Below, piece by piece: positions 3,957 to 32,625 of a DNA stretch of 46,009 bases. Location: positions 1-46,009 of IMG/VR virus record IMGVR_UViG_3300025647_000058, one strand, 5' to 3'. Each line of letters starts with the position of its first letter. The stretch's first letter is position 1. The notes beneath the pieces were generated by a model that was not told the origin of the DNA, did no database searches, and saw nothing but the letters and a program-made list of their open reading frames with translations. This DNA comes from a virus. The translations under genes and the position numbers were made by a program.

Positions 3957-4880
3957 TTATTCCCCAAATTCATCATCTTCACCGAACCCGATGTCATCAT
4001 CGTCATCAGATGCAACTCCGTCATCGCTAGAAAGTAATTCACCTTCAATTGCTTCCTCTTCGCTCGATTCGGTTTCCGTGACGTCCTCACCTGTGTCTTG
4101 GTCATAGGTTGGTTCGTCCTTTTTGGCTGAGGCTAAATTAATGCGGTCTTTGTGCTTAATGTTCAATGCAATGATTTCAGCCTTTGAGCCATCCCATGTG
4201 CCATTGGCTTGCATTTCTTCACGGATTTTACCGCAAGTATGCTTAAGCTCGTCCAACGTGTAGCAGTCTGACATGGTGGTATCAATATCAGTAAGATTGA
4301 CACTAGCTCGTGGAGTGATGTCACGCTCCTGTGCTGGTGAGTTGCTTCCGCCATTGCTGCGAATGCGACCGGCTTCATCGTCGTCTATGACTTCGCTGAT
4401 ACCAAAGGCAATACGTGCAGCCTGAATATAGGCTTTGTGACGTAACATGCGATTTGGCCAACGTTTCCATACTGATGATTTAGGGTCAGAACATTCAGCC
4501 ATGTATTCTGTAGCACATGCAGGACGTGAACGACCTTTGATATACATGCGACAAGTAATAGATGTGATTTCGCCTTTGTCGTTTAGGTGGTCATCAAACT
4601 CAACGCCATCAAATGTTTCTTGACGGTTTACCATTCGATACCAGCCATCAATCATCACTATGACTTGCAGCTTGCCACCACTGATAAACGCCGCGCATTC
4701 TTTGACAAGTGGGTTTAACTCGTACTTAGAGCAAACACCTGTGAATACTGCTATCTCAGCATTTGAAGCGGTTGCGCCATGCTGATTTTTGCTTGATATA
4801 ATCATACCTGAAATAACGTTTTTAATATCTTCTTCGCTTGCGCCAGTGTTGGCTGCTACGATTGATAATGCTGTTGTCAT
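3957..4880 (-). CDS. bet: Bet/RecT-type single-strand annealing recombinase
   Basis: A 307-residue protein resembling lambda Red beta (phage recombination protein Bet). The conserved core covers about residues 40-175, with the stretch ELNPLVKECAAF, the VMIDGWYRMVNR segment, and the RMLRHKAYIQAARIAFGISEV segment typical of this family. The C-terminal third is acidic and low-complexity, ending in repeated Asp/Glu, a likely partner-interaction tail. It anneals complementary single strands produced by the exonuclease encoded upstream (5754-4963). It has its own promoter-like sequence in the 82-base gap and ends at a strong terminator. In this phage it probably supports recombination-dependent replication and concatemer formation. 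Confidence 0.9.
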   Translation of the reverse strand: MTTALSIVAANTGASEEDIKNVISGMIISSKNQHGATASNAEIAVFTGVCSKYELNPLVKECAAFISGGKLQVIVMIDGWYRMVNRQETFDGVEFDDHLNDKGEITSITCRMYIKGRSRPACATEYMAECSDPKSSVWKRWPNRMLRHKAYIQAARIAFGISEVIDDDEAGRIRSNGGSNSPAQERDITPRASVNLTDIDTTMSDCYTLDELKHTCGKIREEMQANGTWDGSKAEIIALNIKHKDRINLASAKKDEPTYDQDTGEDVTETESSEEEAIEGELLSSDDGVASDDDDDIGFGEDDEFGE

Positions 4881-4962: not shown

Positions 4963-5754
4963 TTACCACTTCTTCGGCAATGCTAATACTTCAACATCCA
5001 TACCCACGCCAAATTCTTCGAACTCTTTTATTTTCTCAATGTCGAATTCGCACTGTAGCCAGCCTTCCTCTAAATCTTCCTGAGAAAGTTCAAACACCCT
5101 AACTTCATGCTTGCCGAATGTTTTTTGTTTAGACACCACAACAAAAATAAATCGAGGCATAAACCCCGTAAGTTCAAAGTAAGCTTTACGATACCAGGCT
5201 GCTTGGCAATGGTAGCGGTAATCACGAACCGAATATTTAAACTTGCTCATATCTCCAGTAGTTTTTAAATCAACGATACAATGAAATCCAAGCGCTTCAT
5301 GGTCTGGCTTTCGGTCAAATCTAGCCTTACACTTTATGCCGTCAACTTCAAAAAATACTGATAGCTCGCTTTCGCCGCTTGATGTTAACAGTTTTTTTGC
5401 CACTGGATGCGCCATTACTGAATCACGCATATCGGTAACTAGTGTGTAATCGGCGTCAGAAATAACTTCCTTACCAACCATATTTTGCTCAAATAGTTCT
5501 GCGCCTTCCTTGCCTGCCTTAGTGCGCTTATCGAATGACGGCATTTTAACGTAATCACCGACAAATGATTCTGGCTCCAATACTGCCGAATGCGTAGCAG
5601 TGCCAATATCGCCTGTGCTGCTTGGTGATGATGGCGCGTTTCTTGACCATTCAATGAGTGCTGCCGACTTGTTGATCATTGATAGGTCAGAATTTGACCA
5701 CGCTTTTACCTGTCTGTATTCTGCGTTAGTTAGTGCTGTTGTTTGATGTGCCAT
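4963..5754 (-). CDS. RecE-like PD-(D/E)XK exonuclease
   Basis: A 263-residue nuclease resembling the C-terminal exonuclease domain of RecE (exodeoxyribonuclease VIII family, PF12684-like). Visible signatures are the N-terminal SNSDLSMINKS and GTATHSAVLEPESF motif (residues 51-64, with H55), the metal-binding D147 in CKARFDRKP, D162 and K164 in IVDLKTT, and the QAAWY motif (184-188). It would resect double-stranded ends 5' to 3' and load the Bet-type annealase encoded just downstream. The pair is a classic synaptase-exonuclease system. The start ATG overlaps no neighbour and is the first in the frame. Confidence 0.88.
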   Translation of the reverse strand: MAHQTTALTNAEYRQVKAWSNSDLSMINKSAALIEWSRNAPSSPSSTGDIGTATHSAVLEPESFVGDYVKMPSFDKRTKAGKEGAELFEQNMVGKEVISDADYTLVTDMRDSVMAHPVAKKLLTSSGESELSVFFEVDGIKCKARFDRKPDHEALGFHCIVDLKTTGDMSKFKYSVRDYRYHCQAAWYRKAYFELTGFMPRFIFVVVSKQKTFGKHEVRVFELSQEDLEEGWLQCEFDIEKIKEFEEFGVGMDVEVLALPKKW

Positions 5755-8161: not shown

Positions 8162-10897
8162 TTACTTCAAGCGGATACGCTGCCCATCAATCTCAACTTT
8201 ACCCTCGCCACGCAATGACATGATAGAGTTTTCAAAAGCGTCTTGGTTATGCTTAAGCAGGTCTTTGGCGATCTCCTGATAATACGTCTGGCGTTTAAGG
8301 AACTCTTTGAGCTTGGACTTATAGCGCCATCCGTCGTCCTTATCGCCTTTGTTAACCTTTAATCGTTTGGTGATAGCCTCTTTGATACCCTCAATTTTTG
8401 ACTCGATGGTGTCACCGTCTTTGGCTTCGTTAATGCGCAAGTTACTTTCTAAATGCTTAATAGAGTTTAAGGCCACCAGCAACGCATATTTAACGTGTTC
8501 AACATCAACCGTCACATTGCCATCAACCTCATTATAAAGTGCCAGAGAACTTGATACGCTCATCACACGCTCAGATAAACGCGCATACAAAGCGCCAAGT
8601 CTAGGATGGTTCAAGTATTCTTGCTGATCGTAATGCACCGCAATATCAAACATCATTCGGCTGGCTTCTGGTGTTGCTAACGTTTTAGTATCTTTCCCAG
8701 TAAAGCTGGATTCAATATGGCCGTTGCGCACATCGTTAGACGATTGCACAATCATACCGATACCAGCCTTAAGCTTTTCATACAGCATTTTATCATCGTG
8801 AGATTCGTACCCGTTTTGTTCCCACTTACCAAAATCATTCAAGCTATCGTTTTGGACACGCTCAACACCGCAGTCAAAAATTAACGCACGACCAAGGAAG
8901 CCAGATTCAATGCTGTCCTCGTCGATAATACCTGCAAGTTTTTGTGGGGTAGACAGTGCAGCAAGGTTAAGGGCTGGATCTTTAACGCCATGTTCGATGG
9001 CATAGGCTACGCGGTCGACCTCTTTTGACTTTTCTTTTAGCTGCAATATTTCATGGTCGATATGTTTTATTTTCTCTTTTTCATGATCAGTGTTAAAGCC
9101 AAGTCTAATATCCTCTTTGGCCATTATAATTTTTTCATAACGCGCCTTCTTTGAGCTTAACGTGGCTTCAAATTCATCAGCGTGAAGCTTCGATAAAATA
9201 TAAAGCGATGAGGTGGCTATCTCCATCAGTGTTGCCGGTATCTTAGATGTGTTCTTATCCTTACCACCTAACGAATCACCTAGCAGCGTATGTGCTTCAT
9301 CTTTGATGTAGAAGCATCGACCATCATCATAAGCTGCAGCGCGGATAATATCTTTATCGGAACGGATATCACCATAAACGTGGATCCCAGACTCACCAAG
9401 TAAGTTTTTTGATACTGACTGCGCGCGGTCCTTGCCTGACGCTGAAACACCCAAAGTGATGGTGATCAAGCTTAGCTTGCTGTTTCTAAAACCTCTTAAT
9501 CCGCTACCTGCCATTGCCATGCACTGAATCGCCATAGCTGCGAATGCGCCACCCTCAAGCTTACGGTGAGCGCCTGACTTCATGTAGCGAACAATATCAC
9601 CAGCTAATCCTGGCGGGTTATCAACGTCAACGTCATCAAGATTGATATTTGCAGGCAGCGCATTTATACCGGTTAACTTTTTAGGTGCAGAAGATGGTTT
9701 AGCACCACCCATCCAAGATCCAAATGCTGGCATTGGTTGTTGTTGTACTGGTGTTGGTTTTGGCTTAGGTTCCGACACTGGCTTAGTTTGTGCTACAGCT
9801 TTAGTTTCTGGTACCGCACTAACCGACTTTGGCTTAATACCAATCGCTAAGCGCATAGTCGCTTTACATGCATCATCGCCATGCTTTTGGCGGTAGTCGT
9901 CCCAATCACCAAGCTCAGGCGGTAACGCTACAACCGCAGCAAATGGATCAGCCGCTTTATTGGCATAGTATTCACCCGGCCTGCGATTATGCGCTGGATC
10001 TATTTCATCGTGATCACCAAAAACAACAATGTTAGATTCGGGATGATCAATTTTAACCTGCCTAACTGCTTCCTCAAGATTGCCGGTATTAAATGACACA
10101 TAGGTCTTGAACTTAGTCAATTTGTTGACAGTAACGCCAGTTGCATAACCCTCAACGACTGCGATACTTTTTGTGGTACCGTCAATAATATGGTGAACGC
10201 CTTGCATATCTCCACCGAATAATGGCCGCTTAACACCGTCCTCAGTAATTTTTTGCACGTTGACTAGCTCACCCGCTTTATAAACTGGCACCAACAAAAG
10301 TCCACCAGCAGGAATAACGCCATCTTTGCTGTAAATCGGCTGACCATTAACAAGGCCGTCCATAAACAAGCCTTTGTCATCTAAATATTTATGCGCCTTA
10401 CTAACAGCCGATGCCATTAATAACACAGCACCTTTTTTGGCTTGCTCGATATTGGCTGCGCGAACCGCGTCATGATCAACAATATGCACACGCTTAGGCG
10501 CGATAGTTTTTAGCTCGTCATCACCAATCAACTCTTTGGCCGTTTCCATAACCGTTTTATTGATAAAGCGAGACAGCAGAAGTAATCCACCACCGCTTTG
10601 CGGTTCACACTGAGAACAAAACCACGTACCACGGCCATTTTTATCATCAAAGCGGAAACGGTCTTTACCACCACAAACTGGACAAGGCCCATGCTTACGA
10701 CCGCTAGGCAGTTGACAACCATAATTACCTAGCACTGTTGACCACTGACCATGGAACTGATCAAGCGCTTTATCAACTGGACTAGGCTCATTGCTATTGT
10801 TTTTATATTGACGCTCACCACTATGGCACCCGCAACCAGGGTCGCTTAGTGATGTTCTTGTAGTGTGGCCACAAGATAATATTAAAGGGAATTTCAT
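8162..10897 (-). CDS. Primase-helicase: zinc ribbon, TOPRIM and P-loop ATPase domains
   Basis: A 911-residue replication protein. The N-terminus has a primase zinc ribbon with C72, C75, C94 and C97 around FRFDDKNGRGTWFC. A TOPRIM nucleotidyl-transfer fold follows, with catalytic E249 (AVVEGYATG) and D295/D297 (GDHD). After a Pro/Gln/Lys-rich linker (about 360-400) comes a DUF3987-like helicase/ATPase domain with P-loop GVSASGKD (482-489). The C-terminal 120 residues are charged and helical. This layout equals phage primase-helicases that make RNA primers and unwind the fork. It is preceded by a small HTH gene and ends at a strong terminator. No polymerase gene accompanies it, so host polymerase is probably used. 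Confidence 0.88.
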   Translation of the reverse strand: MKFPLILSCGHTTRTSLSDPGCGCHSGERQYKNNSNEPSPVDKALDQFHGQWSTVLGNYGCQLPSGRKHGPCPVCGGKDRFRFDDKNGRGTWFCSQCEPQSGGGLLLLSRFINKTVMETAKELIGDDELKTIAPKRVHIVDHDAVRAANIEQAKKGAVLLMASAVSKAHKYLDDKGLFMDGLVNGQPIYSKDGVIPAGGLLLVPVYKAGELVNVQKITEDGVKRPLFGGDMQGVHHIIDGTTKSIAVVEGYATGVTVNKLTKFKTYVSFNTGNLEEAVRQVKIDHPESNIVVFGDHDEIDPAHNRRPGEYYANKAADPFAAVVALPPELGDWDDYRQKHGDDACKATMRLAIGIKPKSVSAVPETKAVAQTKPVSEPKPKPTPVQQQPMPAFGSWMGGAKPSSAPKKLTGINALPANINLDDVDVDNPPGLAGDIVRYMKSGAHRKLEGGAFAAMAIQCMAMAGSGLRGFRNSKLSLITITLGVSASGKDRAQSVSKNLLGESGIHVYGDIRSDKDIIRAAAYDDGRCFYIKDEAHTLLGDSLGGKDKNTSKIPATLMEIATSSLYILSKLHADEFEATLSSKKARYEKIIMAKEDIRLGFNTDHEKEKIKHIDHEILQLKEKSKEVDRVAYAIEHGVKDPALNLAALSTPQKLAGIIDEDSIESGFLGRALIFDCGVERVQNDSLNDFGKWEQNGYESHDDKMLYEKLKAGIGMIVQSSNDVRNGHIESSFTGKDTKTLATPEASRMMFDIAVHYDQQEYLNHPRLGALYARLSERVMSVSSSLALYNEVDGNVTVDVEHVKYALLVALNSIKHLESNLRINEAKDGDTIESKIEGIKEAITKRLKVNKGDKDDGWRYKSKLKEFLKRQTYYQEIAKDLLKHNQDAFENSIMSLRGEGKVEIDGQRIRLK

Positions 10898-11458: not shown

Positions 11459-12049
11459 ATGAGCGGATTATATTTACAGCAACAAAACCCAGAAGATCTA
11501 AATTACGACGGCTTTTATGACGGGCAAAATAAAACAATTCCTAATGATGCCGAACTAACGTGCGCCGTAACTGGTGGCTTTGTCGGTATCGAAGAAGGTA
11601 AAAGCTTGCGGGTGTGCATGGTCAATGTAGTAGTTACATCGGCGGGTGAGTTTTTCGGTCAAAAGTACAAATACAACGCCAAGATTTATGATATGGATGC
11701 TGGTAAGCGTGATCTAGCTATGCGCAATTTAGGCGTGTTAGATGCACAAGCAGGCTTTCCAATGACCAACGGACAAGTTGAGCTATCCACTGACAGTATT
11801 GAACAATATTGGGTAGGGCAGTCAGAAGCCCGTGTCAAGTTTGGTTTGTTTATGACAGACCCAGAAGGCGAGCCAGACGGTGTGGCGCGTGAAATCAACT
11901 TCATTCGCGGCTTCGGTTACTTGCGTGAAAAAATGGTTCAAGCTGGTGGACAGGTAAAGAATGTGCCAGATAATGCGCCAACCCAACAAGACCGTGACGA
12001 ACAGCGTGCTGAATATGAAGAATCGCCTGACGCAGATATCGATTTTTAA
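11459..12049 (+). CDS. Single-stranded DNA-binding-like protein
   Basis: A 196-residue protein with a good ribosome binding site (ACGGAG). The N-terminal 130 residues are predicted beta-rich, with alternating hydrophobic and polar positions and aromatic residues that suit an OB fold. The C-terminal tail is disordered, Gln/Glu/Asp-rich and ends DADIDF. An acidic tip finishing in Phe is the signature by which SSB proteins bind partner enzymes. It lies between the divergent promoters and the helicase, among replication and recombination genes, where phage SSBs are usual. The fold assignment is inference; the acidic Phe tail is directly visible. Confidence 0.65.
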   Translation: MSGLYLQQQNPEDLNYDGFYDGQNKTIPNDAELTCAVTGGFVGIEEGKSLRVCMVNVVVTSAGEFFGQKYKYNAKIYDMDAGKRDLAMRNLGVLDAQAGFPMTNGQVELSTDSIEQYWVGQSEARVKFGLFMTDPEGEPDGVAREINFIRGFGYLREKMVQAGGQVKNVPDNAPTQQDRDEQRAEYEESPDADIDF

Positions 12050-12095: not shown

Positions 12096-12122
12096 ATTAC
12101 CACTTTATTTTTCATGGTTTTG

Positions 12123-12131
12123 TGCTACAAT
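12123..12131 (+). promoter_or_regulatory. Putative extended -10 promoter of the homing endonuclease
   Basis: TGCTACAAT is an extended -10 (TG-n-TACAAT) 31 bases before the ATG at 12162. No good -35 is present. It follows directly after the terminator, so a fresh start of transcription is needed here. Confidence 0.35.
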
Positions 12132-12161
12132 ACTATAAAAAGTAATCAAGGGCATTTCACT

Positions 12162-12971
12162 ATGAATTACCAAAAGTTGCATGATTCAATTATCAGTACT
12201 GCAAAAAAAAGAGGGCTAATTAAAGGACAATACAAGGAGTCTCACCACATCTTACCTAAATCAATGGGAGGTAATAATGGTAAATCCAATCTTGTTGACC
12301 TAACTGCTCGAGAGCATTTTATTATTCACTGGCTTCTAAAGAAGATTCACAACAACAAGTCTATGACTTACGCATTCTTCTCAATGACAAAGATGGGAAA
12401 TGAAAGCCAAAAGAGATATACCAGCCATAGCTTTAAATATGCAAGAGAAGCCATGAGCATTTTAATGTCAGAAAGGACTGGGGAAAAAAATCCTTTATAT
12501 GGATTGACTGGAGAAAAAAGCCCTAACTTCGGGTCTAAAAGAAGCGAGTCAGCAAGGGGTAACATATCAAAATCAATGACTGGAAATATGATTGGCTCTA
12601 GAAATCACAAATCAAAACCAGTGAAAAACCTAACTACCGGTGAAGTGTTCGAATCTATTAGGCAAGCTCAAATTAAAACTACTGGAAATGTTTCGTATGC
12701 AGTTAGGAATGGCGGGACTGCAGGGGGTGACATGTATTCATTTGTTGATTGCTATGGGAATAACATAGATCAAACGTCAAAACTAAAAGGATACATGAAA
12801 AGTGACAAGCACGTTTTCTCTGTTTCAATTTTAAATAAAACAACTGGCAAAAAATTCAACACCATTAAAGAGGCTGGATCATCAGTAGGAAAAACGGGAG
12901 CGGCAATAAGCTGGGCAATTAAAAACAACAAAACAATATGCGGATTTGAATTCGTAAGGACTGATAAATGA
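12162..12971 (+). CDS. Free-standing HNH homing endonuclease with NUMOD modules
   Basis: A 269-residue protein starting at MNYQKLHDSI; the upstream in-frame start at 12114 lacks a ribosome binding site. The HNH core is ESHHILPKSMGG with a second His further on (about residues 27-62, AREHFIIHW). NUMOD3-type repeats (GEKNPLYGLTGEKSPNFG) follow near residues 107-125. C-terminal NUMOD1/intron-encoded-nuclease-like DNA-binding repeats end at FEFVRTDK. Such genes are selfish elements that cut allelic DNA and copy themselves between phages. It lies between the SSB-like gene and the helicase and overlaps the helicase ATG by ATGA, so the insertion is compact. Its codon and AT content look somewhat richer in A than its neighbours. 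Confidence 0.88.
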   Translation: MNYQKLHDSIISTAKKRGLIKGQYKESHHILPKSMGGNNGKSNLVDLTAREHFIIHWLLKKIHNNKSMTYAFFSMTKMGNESQKRYTSHSFKYAREAMSILMSERTGEKNPLYGLTGEKSPNFGSKRSESARGNISKSMTGNMIGSRNHKSKPVKNLTTGEVFESIRQAQIKTTGNVSYAVRNGGTAGGDMYSFVDCYGNNIDQTSKLKGYMKSDKHVFSVSILNKTTGKKFNTIKEAGSSVGKTGAAISWAIKNNKTICGFEFVRTDK

Positions 12972-14947
12972 AAATGAAACCTAGACCTTATCAGCAAGAG
13001 GCAATTGATTCGGTTATCAAGCACGTCAAAAAAAGACTGTCTCCTTGTCTTATAGAATGTGCCACAGGAAGTGGGAAAAGCCTTATAGTTGCAGAGCTTG
13101 CAGAATTCTTTTCTGGCGTAGCTCCTAGTAAAAGAGTTCTTTGCATAGCCCCTAGCCGAGAGCTTGTTGAACAAAATTTTTCTAGGTACACAGTTGATTA
13201 TGGAAATCAAGCCTCTATCTATTGCGCAAGCGCTGGTAAAAAGTGTTTGCGCTCTCAGGTGATATTTGCAAGCCCTCAGTCAGCATTAGGCACTATTGAT
13301 AAAATCGCTCACATGGGCGTTAGTGCTATCATTATCGATGAAGCGCATGGCATGACCAACACCATGAAAAAATTGATTGATTCAGTCCTTAGCTACACTA
13401 TCAAAGATAAGCTAGTTAACGACAAGTGCAGAATAATAGGCATGACGGCTACACCTTACCGCATGGGTACAGGCTACATTTATGCCATCGACGCAACAGG
13501 TGAGGAAGAAATTCACCTAGATGAAGATCGCGCAATTGAACCGTTTTACTCAAAATTACTTTACCGCATCACAGCGGGTGAGCTCGTCAATGAAAGCTTT
13601 TTATCACAAGTTAAAATCGGTGATAGCTCGGACAGCTACGACACCAGCACATTAGAGACTGATAAGTTTGGCCGCTTTTCTGCCAAGTCAGTTGAGAAAA
13701 CATTTTCTGGTAATACCAAAACAGAGCGCATCATTCAGCGTGTCATTGATAATTCAGTTAACAAAATGGGTGTGATGATATTTGCTGCCACCATTAGCCA
13801 TGCTGAGGAAATAGCAAGCTACTTACCTGCTGGTGAAGTAGAAGTGATCACCGGCAAGCTTAAGAAAAAAGAGCGTGATGATAAAATTGAACGGTTTAAG
13901 GTTCAAGGCTATAAATATATTGTTAATGTTGACATTTTGACCACAGGTTTTGATGCGCCACACGTTGATTACGTGGTGATCATGCGAGCTACTGAATCGG
14001 CCAGTTTGTTTCAACAAATCATTGGTCGCGGTTTGCGTTTACATGATGATAAAGAATATTGCTTAATCTCCGACTTTGCCGAAAACATCGAGCGACACAA
14101 ATTGCAGTCTGACATTTTTACCCCAGAAATAAACGCCAGGGTAAAATCGGGTGAGTCGCCAGAAATCAGCGTAACCTGTCCAGCGTGCAATTGCGTATCG
14201 GATAAGAAGCGCCGTAGTGATGATGCTTATGCAGGATTAGCGCATGATGTTTTTGGTAACTTCATTATTAGTGGCACCGAAAAGGCTACCGCTTGGGATG
14301 ATGACGGCCACGCCTGCCAGTGGGAAGGTATACCGCTCACCATGCAGGTTTTAGACCCAACAACCAAAGATGAGTTTGGAGAATGTGCATTTAAAGAAAT
14401 ACCGGTTCCCGCGCATTATTCTCGTAGATGCAGCAATCCAGAAGCGTACATCATGAGCGGAAAGCCAATTCAATGCTCACATCGTTACAGTATGAAGATT
14501 TGCCCTGACTGTTACGCTGAAAATGATATAGCCGCGCGTCATTGTGTTGGCTGTAAAGGTCGATTAGTTGATCCAAATGAAAAGCTAGTCGAAAAGGCTG
14601 GACAAGCTGGAATTATTGCAACGGGTGAAACAAAGCTCGTGCAATGCTTTAATGCTCATTACGAATCATACACTGGCGGAACTGGCACAAAGTCTATCAA
14701 AGCCACTTACGCGACAGAGATTGGTGCTGTGATAGCATGGCACACTAAAAAACAGCATTGGATATTTAACCGTTTAGCTAGAGCCAATAGCTGCGACATA
14801 GAGGCCATCGACGCTAATTATTCGCAGTGTGGCTTTTGGTCGGTAGCGCCAAATGAGCTTAAGGTTAAAAAATCTTTGGGTCAAAATGGCTATGCAAAGT
14901 TTGAGGTTAAAGAGGTGTTGTTTATTGCAGAGCAGGTAGGTGAGTAG
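12968..14947 (+). CDS. SF2 DEAH-box helicase with C-terminal zinc motifs
   Basis: A 659-residue superfamily 2 helicase. Q/motif region RPYQQEAI is at residues 6-13, motif I ATGSGKS at 32-38, motif II DEAH at 124-127, and motif III TATPYRMG soon after. Motif VI is QIIGRGLRLHDDKEYCLISDFA near residues 350-371. The C-terminal third carries paired CxxC clusters (CPACNC, and CPDCYAEN with CVGCKG), probably zinc ribbons for DNA binding. Related to SSL2/RadD-type helicases often found in phage replication modules. It overlaps the endonuclease stop by four bases. It probably remodels forks or recombination intermediates together with the RuvC-like resolvase. Confidence 0.9.
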   Translation: MKMKPRPYQQEAIDSVIKHVKKRLSPCLIECATGSGKSLIVAELAEFFSGVAPSKRVLCIAPSRELVEQNFSRYTVDYGNQASIYCASAGKKCLRSQVIFASPQSALGTIDKIAHMGVSAIIIDEAHGMTNTMKKLIDSVLSYTIKDKLVNDKCRIIGMTATPYRMGTGYIYAIDATGEEEIHLDEDRAIEPFYSKLLYRITAGELVNESFLSQVKIGDSSDSYDTSTLETDKFGRFSAKSVEKTFSGNTKTERIIQRVIDNSVNKMGVMIFAATISHAEEIASYLPAGEVEVITGKLKKKERDDKIERFKVQGYKYIVNVDILTTGFDAPHVDYVVIMRATESASLFQQIIGRGLRLHDDKEYCLISDFAENIERHKLQSDIFTPEINARVKSGESPEISVTCPACNCVSDKKRRSDDAYAGLAHDVFGNFIISGTEKATAWDDDGHACQWEGIPLTMQVLDPTTKDEFGECAFKEIPVPAHYSRRCSNPEAYIMSGKPIQCSHRYSMKICPDCYAENDIAARHCVGCKGRLVDPNEKLVEKAGQAGIIATGETKLVQCFNAHYESYTGGTGTKSIKATYATEIGAVIAWHTKKQHWIFNRLARANSCDIEAIDANYSQCGFWSVAPNELKVKKSLGQNGYAKFEVKEVLFIAEQVGE

Positions 14948-15215: not shown

Positions 15216-15332
15216 ATGGATACTGAAACTGTTACTGTTATATCATTTTTTAGCGGATATATTCTAGGCTGCTGCACAGTATGGGCAGCTATGTATTTAT
15301 CTTTTAGCAATGCAAATAAGAATCTAAAATGA
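15216..15332 (+). CDS. Small single-span membrane protein (38 aa)
   Basis: ATG at 15216 preceded by AAGGAAA. The product has one hydrophobic span (about residues 6-30, with two adjacent Cys at 19-20) and a polar C-terminal tail ending NLK. The stop overlaps the resolvase ATG (ATGA, 15329-15332). First gene behind a strong promoter, so it should be well expressed. Function unknown; possibly a host-membrane effector. Confidence 0.55.
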   Translation: MDTETVTVISFFSGYILGCCTVWAAMYLSFSNANKNLK

Positions 15333-15808
15333 GCTTAAATAAAACTCCAGTAATAATCGGCATTGACCCCGATAGCGGTAAACATGGTGTTGCTATCTAT
15401 GTCGGCGAAAAACTTGAAGCGTTACATAATTGGCAAGCATTAGACTTATTTTTTTACCTATTTGAAAATCTTGATGATGCTCGACATTTTGAGATCCACA
15501 TTGAGAACGTATGCGCAATTAATGCGACATTCTCAAAAGCATTCGTTAAAAATGCTCGGTCACAAACAACAATATCAAGATCAATAGGCATGTGCCAGCA
15601 AGCACAGGTTGAGATTGAGCGCATAGCTGAACACTTCAAAGTTAAGGTGTTCAAGCATCCAATCAACAAAAGCTGGAAGGATAGTAAAGTTGGCAACAAA
15701 ATATTAAAGCAGCTTGGCTGGAGTGGGTCAAGCAATGAAGATACCCGTAGTGCTGCTTACTTTGGGTATGTCGGAGTTAAGCAATGGCATTCTATAAACC
15801 GAAAATAA
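15329..15808 (+). CDS. RuvC-like Holliday-junction resolvase
   Basis: A 159-residue RNase H-fold nuclease. The first catalytic Asp is D13 in IIGIDPDSGKHGVA, the second acidic residue is E59 (EIHIENV), and the C-terminal acidic motif is NEDTRSAAYFGY (D138). Size and motif spacing match phage RuvC-like resolvases. It would resolve four-way junctions from recombination-dependent replication and debranch concatemers before packaging. Co-translated with the small membrane gene upstream and overlapping the next gene by 25 bases. Confidence 0.87.
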   Translation: MSLNKTPVIIGIDPDSGKHGVAIYVGEKLEALHNWQALDLFFYLFENLDDARHFEIHIENVCAINATFSKAFVKNARSQTTISRSIGMCQQAQVEIERIAEHFKVKVFKHPINKSWKDSKVGNKILKQLGWSGSSNEDTRSAAYFGYVGVKQWHSINRK

Positions 15809-31704: not shown

Positions 31705-31737
31705 TGTTTAAAGTCCTTTGCAAAGGTTTGATTAACC

Positions 31738-31755
31738 AGTGATGAGTATATCACT
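31738..31755 (-). promoter_or_regulatory. Late-type promoter and palindrome before the sheath gene
   Basis: Minus strand GTGATATACTCA contains TGA-TATACT (extended -10, hexamer 31750-31745), 41 bases before the sheath start. It is embedded in a perfect 6-bp inverted repeat AGTGAT/ATCACT (31738-31743 and 31750-31755). This fits a regulated late promoter. Confidence 0.6.
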
Positions 31756-31778
31756 TGAAGTGTATTTATAGAAATAGC

Positions 31779-31806
31779 TTGCGCTATCGCGAAAGTGTGT
31801 TAAGGT
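31779..31806 (+). promoter_or_regulatory. Putative CGCG-type promoter of clamp-like cassette
   Basis: TTGCGC (31779-31784), 16 bases with TATCGCGAAAG, then TAAGGT (31801-31806), 45 bases before the ATG at 31851. It is weaker than the other CGCG promoters but shares the spacer core. It lies back to back with the sheath promoter. Confidence 0.45.
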
Positions 31807-31850
31807 TTGTGAGTGATTAATAACAACTACCACAACAGGAACCAAAACTA

Positions 31851-32402
31851 ATGAAAATTAAAAGTAAGCTATTACGTGCTGCGCAAGTGTGCCAAGCAAA
31901 AGATGATTGGCGTGAATATCTATGTGGTATTCACATTAAAGGTAATCACGTGGAATCAACCGATGGCCACTGCTGTGTACGCATGGCCATGGATAAGCAT
32001 GTTGAAATTGAGCGAATTGTAAACATCCAAGGCAGAGTACCCGCTAAGGCTGTTAGCTCAATATTTGAGATTGGTGAAGTAGAAGCTATAGTTAAGCATT
32101 ACGATCAATTCTGCCAGCTAATCGGCGTTCAAGTTGTCGACGTTATTGAGGGCAAATATCCAGACTTTGATCGTGTTTTTCCTAAAGATGACAAAAAGAC
32201 GGCTATTAATGAAATAGGTATTAACCCTGATTACATCGGACGATTTAGCAAGATGTTTACCATCAGCAAAATGTGTCACGCTAAGGTTGAGTTGTTTGGC
32301 ATTAATAACGCCATTAAAATGATGTCACTCAATGCAATCATTAATGAAGAATACGGCAACCCAGTGTTTGTTGTTATGCCTATTCGCCTTAAAAAAGACT
32401 AA
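31851..32402 (+). CDS. Half-size sliding-clamp (DnaN)-like protein
   Basis: A 183-residue protein that resembles the second and third domains of the bacterial beta clamp without domain 1 (E. coli DnaN is 366 residues). TDGH (37-40) matches the DnaN TDGHRL motif. EGKYPDFDRVFP (100-111) matches DnaN EGxFPDYRRVLP. The ending VVMPIRL (174-180) matches DnaN YVVMPMRL. By this alignment, the hydrophobic pocket that binds clamp-binding peptides (T172, G174, H175, P242, R246, V247, V360, M362 in E. coli) is kept as T37, G39, H40, P104, R108, V109, V174 and M176. A ring of three would have six domains, as in PCNA. Whether it is a processivity clamp, host-clamp partner or decoy is open. Ribosome binding site ACAGGA. 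Confidence 0.8.
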   Translation: MKIKSKLLRAAQVCQAKDDWREYLCGIHIKGNHVESTDGHCCVRMAMDKHVEIERIVNIQGRVPAKAVSSIFEIGEVEAIVKHYDQFCQLIGVQVVDVIEGKYPDFDRVFPKDDKKTAINEIGINPDYIGRFSKMFTISKMCHAKVELFGINNAIKMMSLNAIINEEYGNPVFVVMPIRLKKD

Positions 32403-32433: not shown

Positions 32434-32625
32434 ATGATGGCTTTATATTTTATTTGCAGTAAATTCAGTGACGCTCATCAGTCTGGAACAATAAAAACAG
32501 ATAACCCCATATCTACTGCAGATCAATACGACAAAGAGATTGATAATTACAAGCGCTATGTAGTCAAGAATTTTAATGCTAGCTATAGCGCGATAATCAT
32601 CCTATCTTTTAGTCGTTTGGATTAA
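32434..32625 (+). CDS. Hypothetical small protein (63 aa)
   Basis: ATG at 32434 follows AAGGAG with good spacing; a second ATG comes right behind it. The protein starts MMALYFICSKFSDAHQSGTI. It follows the clamp-like gene by 31 bases, so co-expression is likely. The stop codon overlaps the convergent neck gene stop as TTAA (32622-32625). No family recognised. Confidence 0.55.
   Translation: MMALYFICSKFSDAHQSGTIKTDNPISTADQYDKEIDNYKRYVVKNFNASYSAIIILSFSRLD

Follow-up and report, generated by a model that had tools for sequence, protein, structure and literature searches.

Known sliding clamps follow a six-domain rule, and in a clamp subunit domains 2 and 3 together contribute four long helices. 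In Escherichia coli DnaN, the published pocket for client peptides comprises R152, L155, T172, G174, H175, R176, L177, P242, R246, V247, N320, Y323, V344, V360, M362, P363, M364 and R365 (PMC11139829). Substitution of I272/L273 renders E. coli beta monomeric (PMC3022782, PMC4041429), and position 305 has been used as an interface label (PMC4041429). Of 22 positions tested, only two, D150 and R152, did not sustain viable cells when substituted (PMC5042465). Phages also act on this system, as exemplified by Gp168 of phage Twort, whose binding site is the DNA channel in the clamp of its host (PMC11139829).

A clamp-derived gene in a relative of Shewanella phage 1/41

The window, that is, the whole 46,009-base virus record analyzed here, is kin to Shewanella sp. 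phage 1/41, which comes from sea ice of the Baltic, with 86.6% DNA identity across 85% of a 7.5-kb stretch. Its minus strand carries a late gene block of the contractile-tail type. Genes for DNA metabolism encode a RecT-like protein (3957–4880), an exonuclease VIII-like exonuclease (4963–5754, minus strand), a primase (8162–10897), a single-stranded DNA-binding protein (SSB; 11459–12049) and a helicase (12968–14947), and a candidate Holliday junction resolvase is present at 15329–15808. The exonuclease is only 53% identical at the amino acid level to that of phage 1/41, an otherwise close genome. By eye, the gene between SSB and helicase (12114–12971, plus strand) has the look of an HNH-type homing endonuclease, with an HHILPKSMGG motif.

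The gene under study, here termed mini-clamp, is a real open reading frame at 31851–32402 on the plus strand, with an ATG start and 183 open codons, encoding a protein of 183 aa (20.8 kDa, pI 8.2). A likely ribosome-binding site on the same strand, AGGAA at 31837–31841, is kept in phage 1/41. The gene stands alone on the plus strand, with the tail sheath gene on one side and the next minus-strand gene on the other. The divergent intergenic region that separates it from the tail sheath gene (31705–31836) is a probable promoter site, within which no match to a consensus promoter was found. The phage 1/41 counterpart occupies the same genome position and is annotated as ‘DNA polymerase III beta subunit’. 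In the window, a 63-aa open reading frame (32434–32625, plus strand) with an AAGGAG-like ribosome-binding site and no PHROG match comes directly after the mini-clamp gene; in phage 1/41, the next minus-strand gene follows immediately, without this insert.

This counterpart, S141_43, is the nearest relative of the mini-clamp, with 57% protein identity as compared to 94% for both flanking genes. Synonymous divergence between the two (dS = 2.9) is near saturation, versus 0.43–0.67 in three of the neighboring genes measured, and the upstream intergenic DNA is mostly near-identical; gene and upstream region together (31705–32402) were compared with L002:17500–18181 of phage 1/41. Because synonymous sites are so close to saturation, allele exchange is a simpler explanation for the low identity than arms-race selection, and we rejected fast evolution in an arms race as its cause. 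The gene was probably exchanged as a cassette.

The NCBIfam dnaN profile matched the mini-clamp with an E value of 4.8e-10 over model positions 136–263, at a score (38.9 bits) below the profile cut-off of 137.65 bits, and phmmer searches also returned solved beta clamps. Profile–profile comparison of the mini-clamp family (64 relatives) with 35 proteobacterial DnaN sequences gave an E value of 2.8e-27. PHROG_3007 matched over the full length (1.8e-47, profile positions 3–188 of 190). AlphaFold2 modeling with the 64 relatives yielded a confident clamp fold (pLDDT 93.6, pTM 0.89), for which all 50 entries listed by a structural aligner were bacterial clamps (Z 12.5–14.5 on the DALI scale). A second model, built for a relative with about 30% identity (L074), behaved alike (pLDDT 94.2, Z 13.1–14.5). 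In both single-chain predictions, approximately 165 residues aligned to E. coli beta 124/128–366 at about 3 Å. The mini-clamp clearly descends from bacterial DnaN, and the clamp ancestry read in the original prediction was borne out.

Domain architecture and the client pocket

Profile alignment mapped the mini-clamp to E. coli residues 128–256, followed by a jump to 313 and continuation to 366. The protein consists only of domain 2 and the C-terminal half of domain 3, some one and a half domains in all, with approximately 165 of the 239 residues of DnaN domains 2 and 3 present. Residues 1–59 (31851–32027; all segments on the plus strand) match the N-terminal half of domain 2, including its first helix, and carry the loop II residues D19 and R21 and the pocket residues L24, T37, G39 and H40. 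The C-terminal half of domain 2, lacking its helix, and the EGKYPDFDRVFP linker (residues 60–117, 32028–32201) contribute P104, R108 and V109 to the pocket. At the junction of residues 117 and 118 (32199–32204), E. coli DnaN 257–312 is absent. The remainder (residues 118–183, 32202–32399) was assigned by profile alignment and AlphaFold2 to the C-terminal half of domain 3; it adds N125, Y128, V174, M176, P177 and R179 to the pocket. These half-domain boundaries are approximate, and the mapping of the weakly similar residues 60–98 onto domain 2 is less certain.

The original prediction held that the protein is too short for domain 1. Domain 1 is indeed absent, but it is not the only part missing: E. 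coli residues 257–312, which make up the N-terminal half of domain 3, are gone as well, as is the second helix of domain 2 (198–207), in place of which the model shows a loop. Both models contain two long helices only. When single relatives were compared with a DnaN domain 2–3 model, they repeatedly gave two hits, one ending near position 254 and the other starting near 317; because the relatives share this split, the half-domain is absent family-wide and not just from the window copy. The gap, also seen in the relatives, removes the dimer-interface segment with I272/L273, and position 305 falls within it. Both known inter-subunit surfaces of DnaN, in domain 1 and in the N-terminal half of domain 3, are therefore missing and, judging from this loss in the sequence, the mini-clamp probably cannot close a canonical ring.

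What is retained, domain 2 with the linker plus the C-terminal half of domain 3, comprises the segments that come together at the pocket. The motifs TDGH (37–40), PDFDRVFP (104–111) and VVMPIRL (174–180) lie where they had been read in the original prediction, and the eight pocket counterparts named there aligned as proposed, with T37, G39, H40, P104, R108, V109, V174 and M176 corresponding to E. coli T172, G174, H175, P242, R246, V247, V360 and M362 in the profile alignment. Identity to E. coli was 14 of 18 at pocket positions versus 25 of 147 at other mapped positions (Fisher p = 3e-7), in agreement with the claim that the peptide-binding pocket is kept; C41, C42, N152 and I178 are the pocket positions that differ in the window protein. 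Across the family, DnaN residues are retained more strongly in the pocket than at equally conserved non-pocket positions (mean overlap 0.74 versus 0.43, p = 2e-4), and R21 and P104 are invariant in all 64 sequences. Subsite I is the best-kept part, and the positions of R176, L177, V344 and M364 drift. With these residues kept, the pocket may still bind clamp clients.

Residues of domain 2 that touch or line the DNA in E. coli beta were compared as well. The equivalents of Q149, R197, R205 and K235 are gone, the latter three being basic pore residues; that of K198 (K66) is partly kept. The equivalents of Y153/Y154 in the DNA-touching loop are kept in most family members, with E22 at Y153 in the window. 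The loop II residues D19 and R21, corresponding to E. coli D150 and R152, are nearly invariant and the most constant in the family. Because R152 also belongs to the pocket (PMC11139829), the conservation of R21 is no proof of DNA contact. The family is basic, with a median pI of 8.2 versus 5.1 for DnaN domains 2 and 3, and has K17 and K134 as family-specific conserved basic residues. Together with the Y153/Y154 equivalents, these conserved basic residues give a hint that the mini-clamp might contact DNA. At three loop II positions that are otherwise conserved (31908–31925), the window copy has residues of its own, namely W20, E22 in place of Y and C25 in place of N.

Distribution, annotation and polymerase content

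Phage records with a relative numbered 243 at E values up to 0.01 and 251 at E values up to 1, a count of about 250 that includes near-duplicates. The phages infect Enterobacteriaceae, Vibrio, Acinetobacter, Shewanella and other hosts, and the gene is conserved among phages of very different type and lifestyle. Carriers include Escherichia phage TanjaMuster_Bas81, and a relative is represented among laboratory phages of E. coli K-12. Bacterial genomes carrying a relative have their own full dnaN too. Relatives were labeled ‘DNA polymerase III beta subunit’ in many cases, and otherwise ‘DNA polymerase’, ‘hypothetical protein’ or ‘RusA-like Holliday junction resolvase’; the missing half-domain is unmentioned in the annotations seen. 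The resolvase label, which originates with PHROG_3007, has been carried over into many RefSeq phage entries (for example, NC_025458.1). The literature searched yielded no work on a phage mini-clamp like this one, an absence that is weak evidence.

Among the records inspected, several relatives have the gene near replication genes encoding primase, SSB, helicase or PolA. In the window, phage 1/41, Proteus phage RS10pmA and Escherichia phage Shashou, it is an isolated gene within a block of structural genes and runs on the other strand. The arrangement most suggestive of a tie to a phage polymerase is that of Acinetobacter phage 4316 (L014:1891–4549), where the mini-clamp directly follows the PolA gene.

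Profile searches detected PolA in five of 41 mini-clamp records, leaving 36 without a family A match, and in none of the 41 did they detect Pol III alpha (family C) or a clamp-loader AAA gene (PF13177). Family B polymerases over the cut-off were likewise absent from all 41; controls were positive for PolA, Pol III alpha, PF00136 and the loader, and the second family-B model had no positive control. For the window, these profile searches agreed with the earlier reading that no phage polymerase is present, as no member of families A, B or C was found, and host Pol III would be, as anticipated, a plausible client. None of the PolA proteins found in mini-clamp records, including that of Acinetobacter phage 4316, carries an obvious terminal clamp-binding motif, and clamp-binding motifs among the other proteins of the window showed no excess over shuffled sequence. 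We therefore rejected a phage polymerase as the client, given the lack of families A, B and C in the window and the small number of motif-less PolA proteins elsewhere.

Functional interpretation and comparison with known clamps

We give a probability of roughly 0.5 to the interpretation that the mini-clamp is a client-capturing pocket module that acts outside the canonical ring and competes with the host clamp to the benefit of the phage. The phage would have trimmed DnaN to the two pieces that jointly build the pocket for clamp-binding peptides, and loss of domain 1 and of the inter-subunit half of domain 3 would let the protein work outside the canonical ring, without encircling DNA. Its pocket could then seize motif-bearing host proteins such as Pol III alpha, clamp-loader delta, MutS/MutL, Hda and translesion polymerases, for which it would compete with the host clamp. 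The purpose may be that of a decoy, slowing or redirecting host replication and repair, or of an adaptor, drawing Pol III to phage forks. A broader version, in which the family represents widespread natural clamp-derived pocket modules with the ring removed, directed at the clamp loader, the polymerase or the repair proteins of the host, is more tentative.

Work on E. coli offers an analogy. Plasmid cloning of a monomeric clamp (I272/L273) with a working cleft failed, from which the authors inferred a dominant-negative effect (PMC3022782), and the affinity of clamp-loader delta for beta is about 50 times higher with the monomer than with the dimer (PMC11139829). Because the monomeric clamp was read as dominant-negative and delta prefers the monomer, a competitor role would be plausible for the mini-clamp. 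The decoy option raised in the original prediction survives and, by this analogy, would gain strength, but a phage that depends on Pol III would itself suffer from a decoy for this polymerase. Since the phage studied here, in which no polymerase of its own was found, must need Pol III, redirection, timing or removal of selected clients is likelier than a simple poison. Further points count against the pocket-module interpretation. The replication-gene neighborhoods would also suit a part in replication, the family is basic, with K17, K134 and the Y153/Y154 equivalents conserved, and four pocket positions differ.

Some of the same observations would be expected of a genuine, if unconventional, processivity clamp, several copies of which join into a ring or an open crescent by contacts that DnaN does not employ, are loaded by the clamp loader of the host and tether host Pol III or, where present, phage PolA to phage DNA. 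The gene adjoins PolA in Acinetobacter phage 4316 and lies near primase, helicase or SSB elsewhere, the positions essential in E. coli (D150/R152, PMC5042465) are the most constant in the family as D19/R21, and the basic residues K17, K134 and, partly, K66 (K198) are conserved. We nevertheless regard this interpretation, the main rival, as possible but doubtful, as the surfaces of domain 1 and of the N-terminal half of domain 3 are both gone, along with the equivalents of R197, R205, K235 and Q149, the phage PolA proteins lack a terminal clamp-binding motif, and monomeric beta is unable to tether Pol III (PMC11139829). Conservation of R152, as a pocket residue (PMC11139829), need not mean DNA contact. 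A narrow host target, other than replication, appears unlikely. During infection, capture of MutS/MutL would shut off mismatch repair, that of Hda would leave DnaA in its active state, and that of a Y-family polymerase would restrict translesion synthesis. Known clients all use this one pocket, in which LF-type motifs occupy only subsite I (PMC11139829), and with subsite I best kept and other positions drifting, client choice may be skewed. No feature detected here separates one client from another, however, and the gene is conserved across phages of very different type and lifestyle.

The PCNA-like trimer of two-domain units suggested in the original prediction did not hold up. The overall match, which reaches from one end of DnaN domains 2 and 3 to the other, speaks for a homotrimer of complete domains, but a protein of about one and a half domains that lacks the inter-subunit half of domain 3, a deficit found family-wide, contradicts it and makes it very improbable. 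The resolvase identity has, in our assessment, hardly any probability left. Although the best PHROG match carries the RusA-like label, sequence-profile and fold searches return sliding clamps, no Pfam family matched the window protein at E values up to 10, only the DnaN central domain was matched in the relatives tested, and the window encodes its separate Holliday junction resolvase candidate. The absence of RusA among the fold matches listed, which include sliding clamps, is in itself no proof. We consider the PHROG_3007 label wrong.

Mini-clamps are not unusual among phages, with about 250 records of which many are already labeled as beta subunit, and the names under which these phages carry them suggest either an ordinary clamp or a resolvase. 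If the mini-clamp is a ring-less pocket module, client binding by the clamp would be separable from DNA tethering, the dominant-negative monomeric clamp would have an equivalent in nature, and the clamp pocket, which is an antibacterial target, could be addressed by a genetically encoded tool. Should one and a half domains instead suffice to build a ring, the six-domain rule would be broken.

Among described systems, E. coli DnaN is homologous to the mini-clamp in sequence and fold throughout domain 2 and in the C-terminal half of domain 3, and the two have the pocket and the loop II residues D150/R152 in common; the mini-clamp differs from it in lacking domain 1, residues 257–312, the second domain 2 helix and the basic pore residues and has half its length. 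It is a full-length-matching member of PHROG_3007, the phage ‘DNA polymerase III beta subunit’ family. PCNA and gp45 of phage T4, both trimeric, are distantly related in fold and likewise have short clamp subunits, but with two complete domains each (chains of 230–256 residues among the matches) rather than about one and a half. The UV-induced short DnaN of E. coli, beta-star, is, like the mini-clamp, a natural N-terminally shortened clamp, but one in which domains 2 and 3 are complete. The I272A/L273A monomer of E. coli beta has a working pocket without a ring, as we propose for the mini-clamp, but is an engineered protein with all three domains, whereas the mini-clamp is natural. Gp168 of phage Twort acts, as the mini-clamp is proposed to do, as a phage protein on the host clamp system but, unlike the mini-clamp, is not derived from a clamp.
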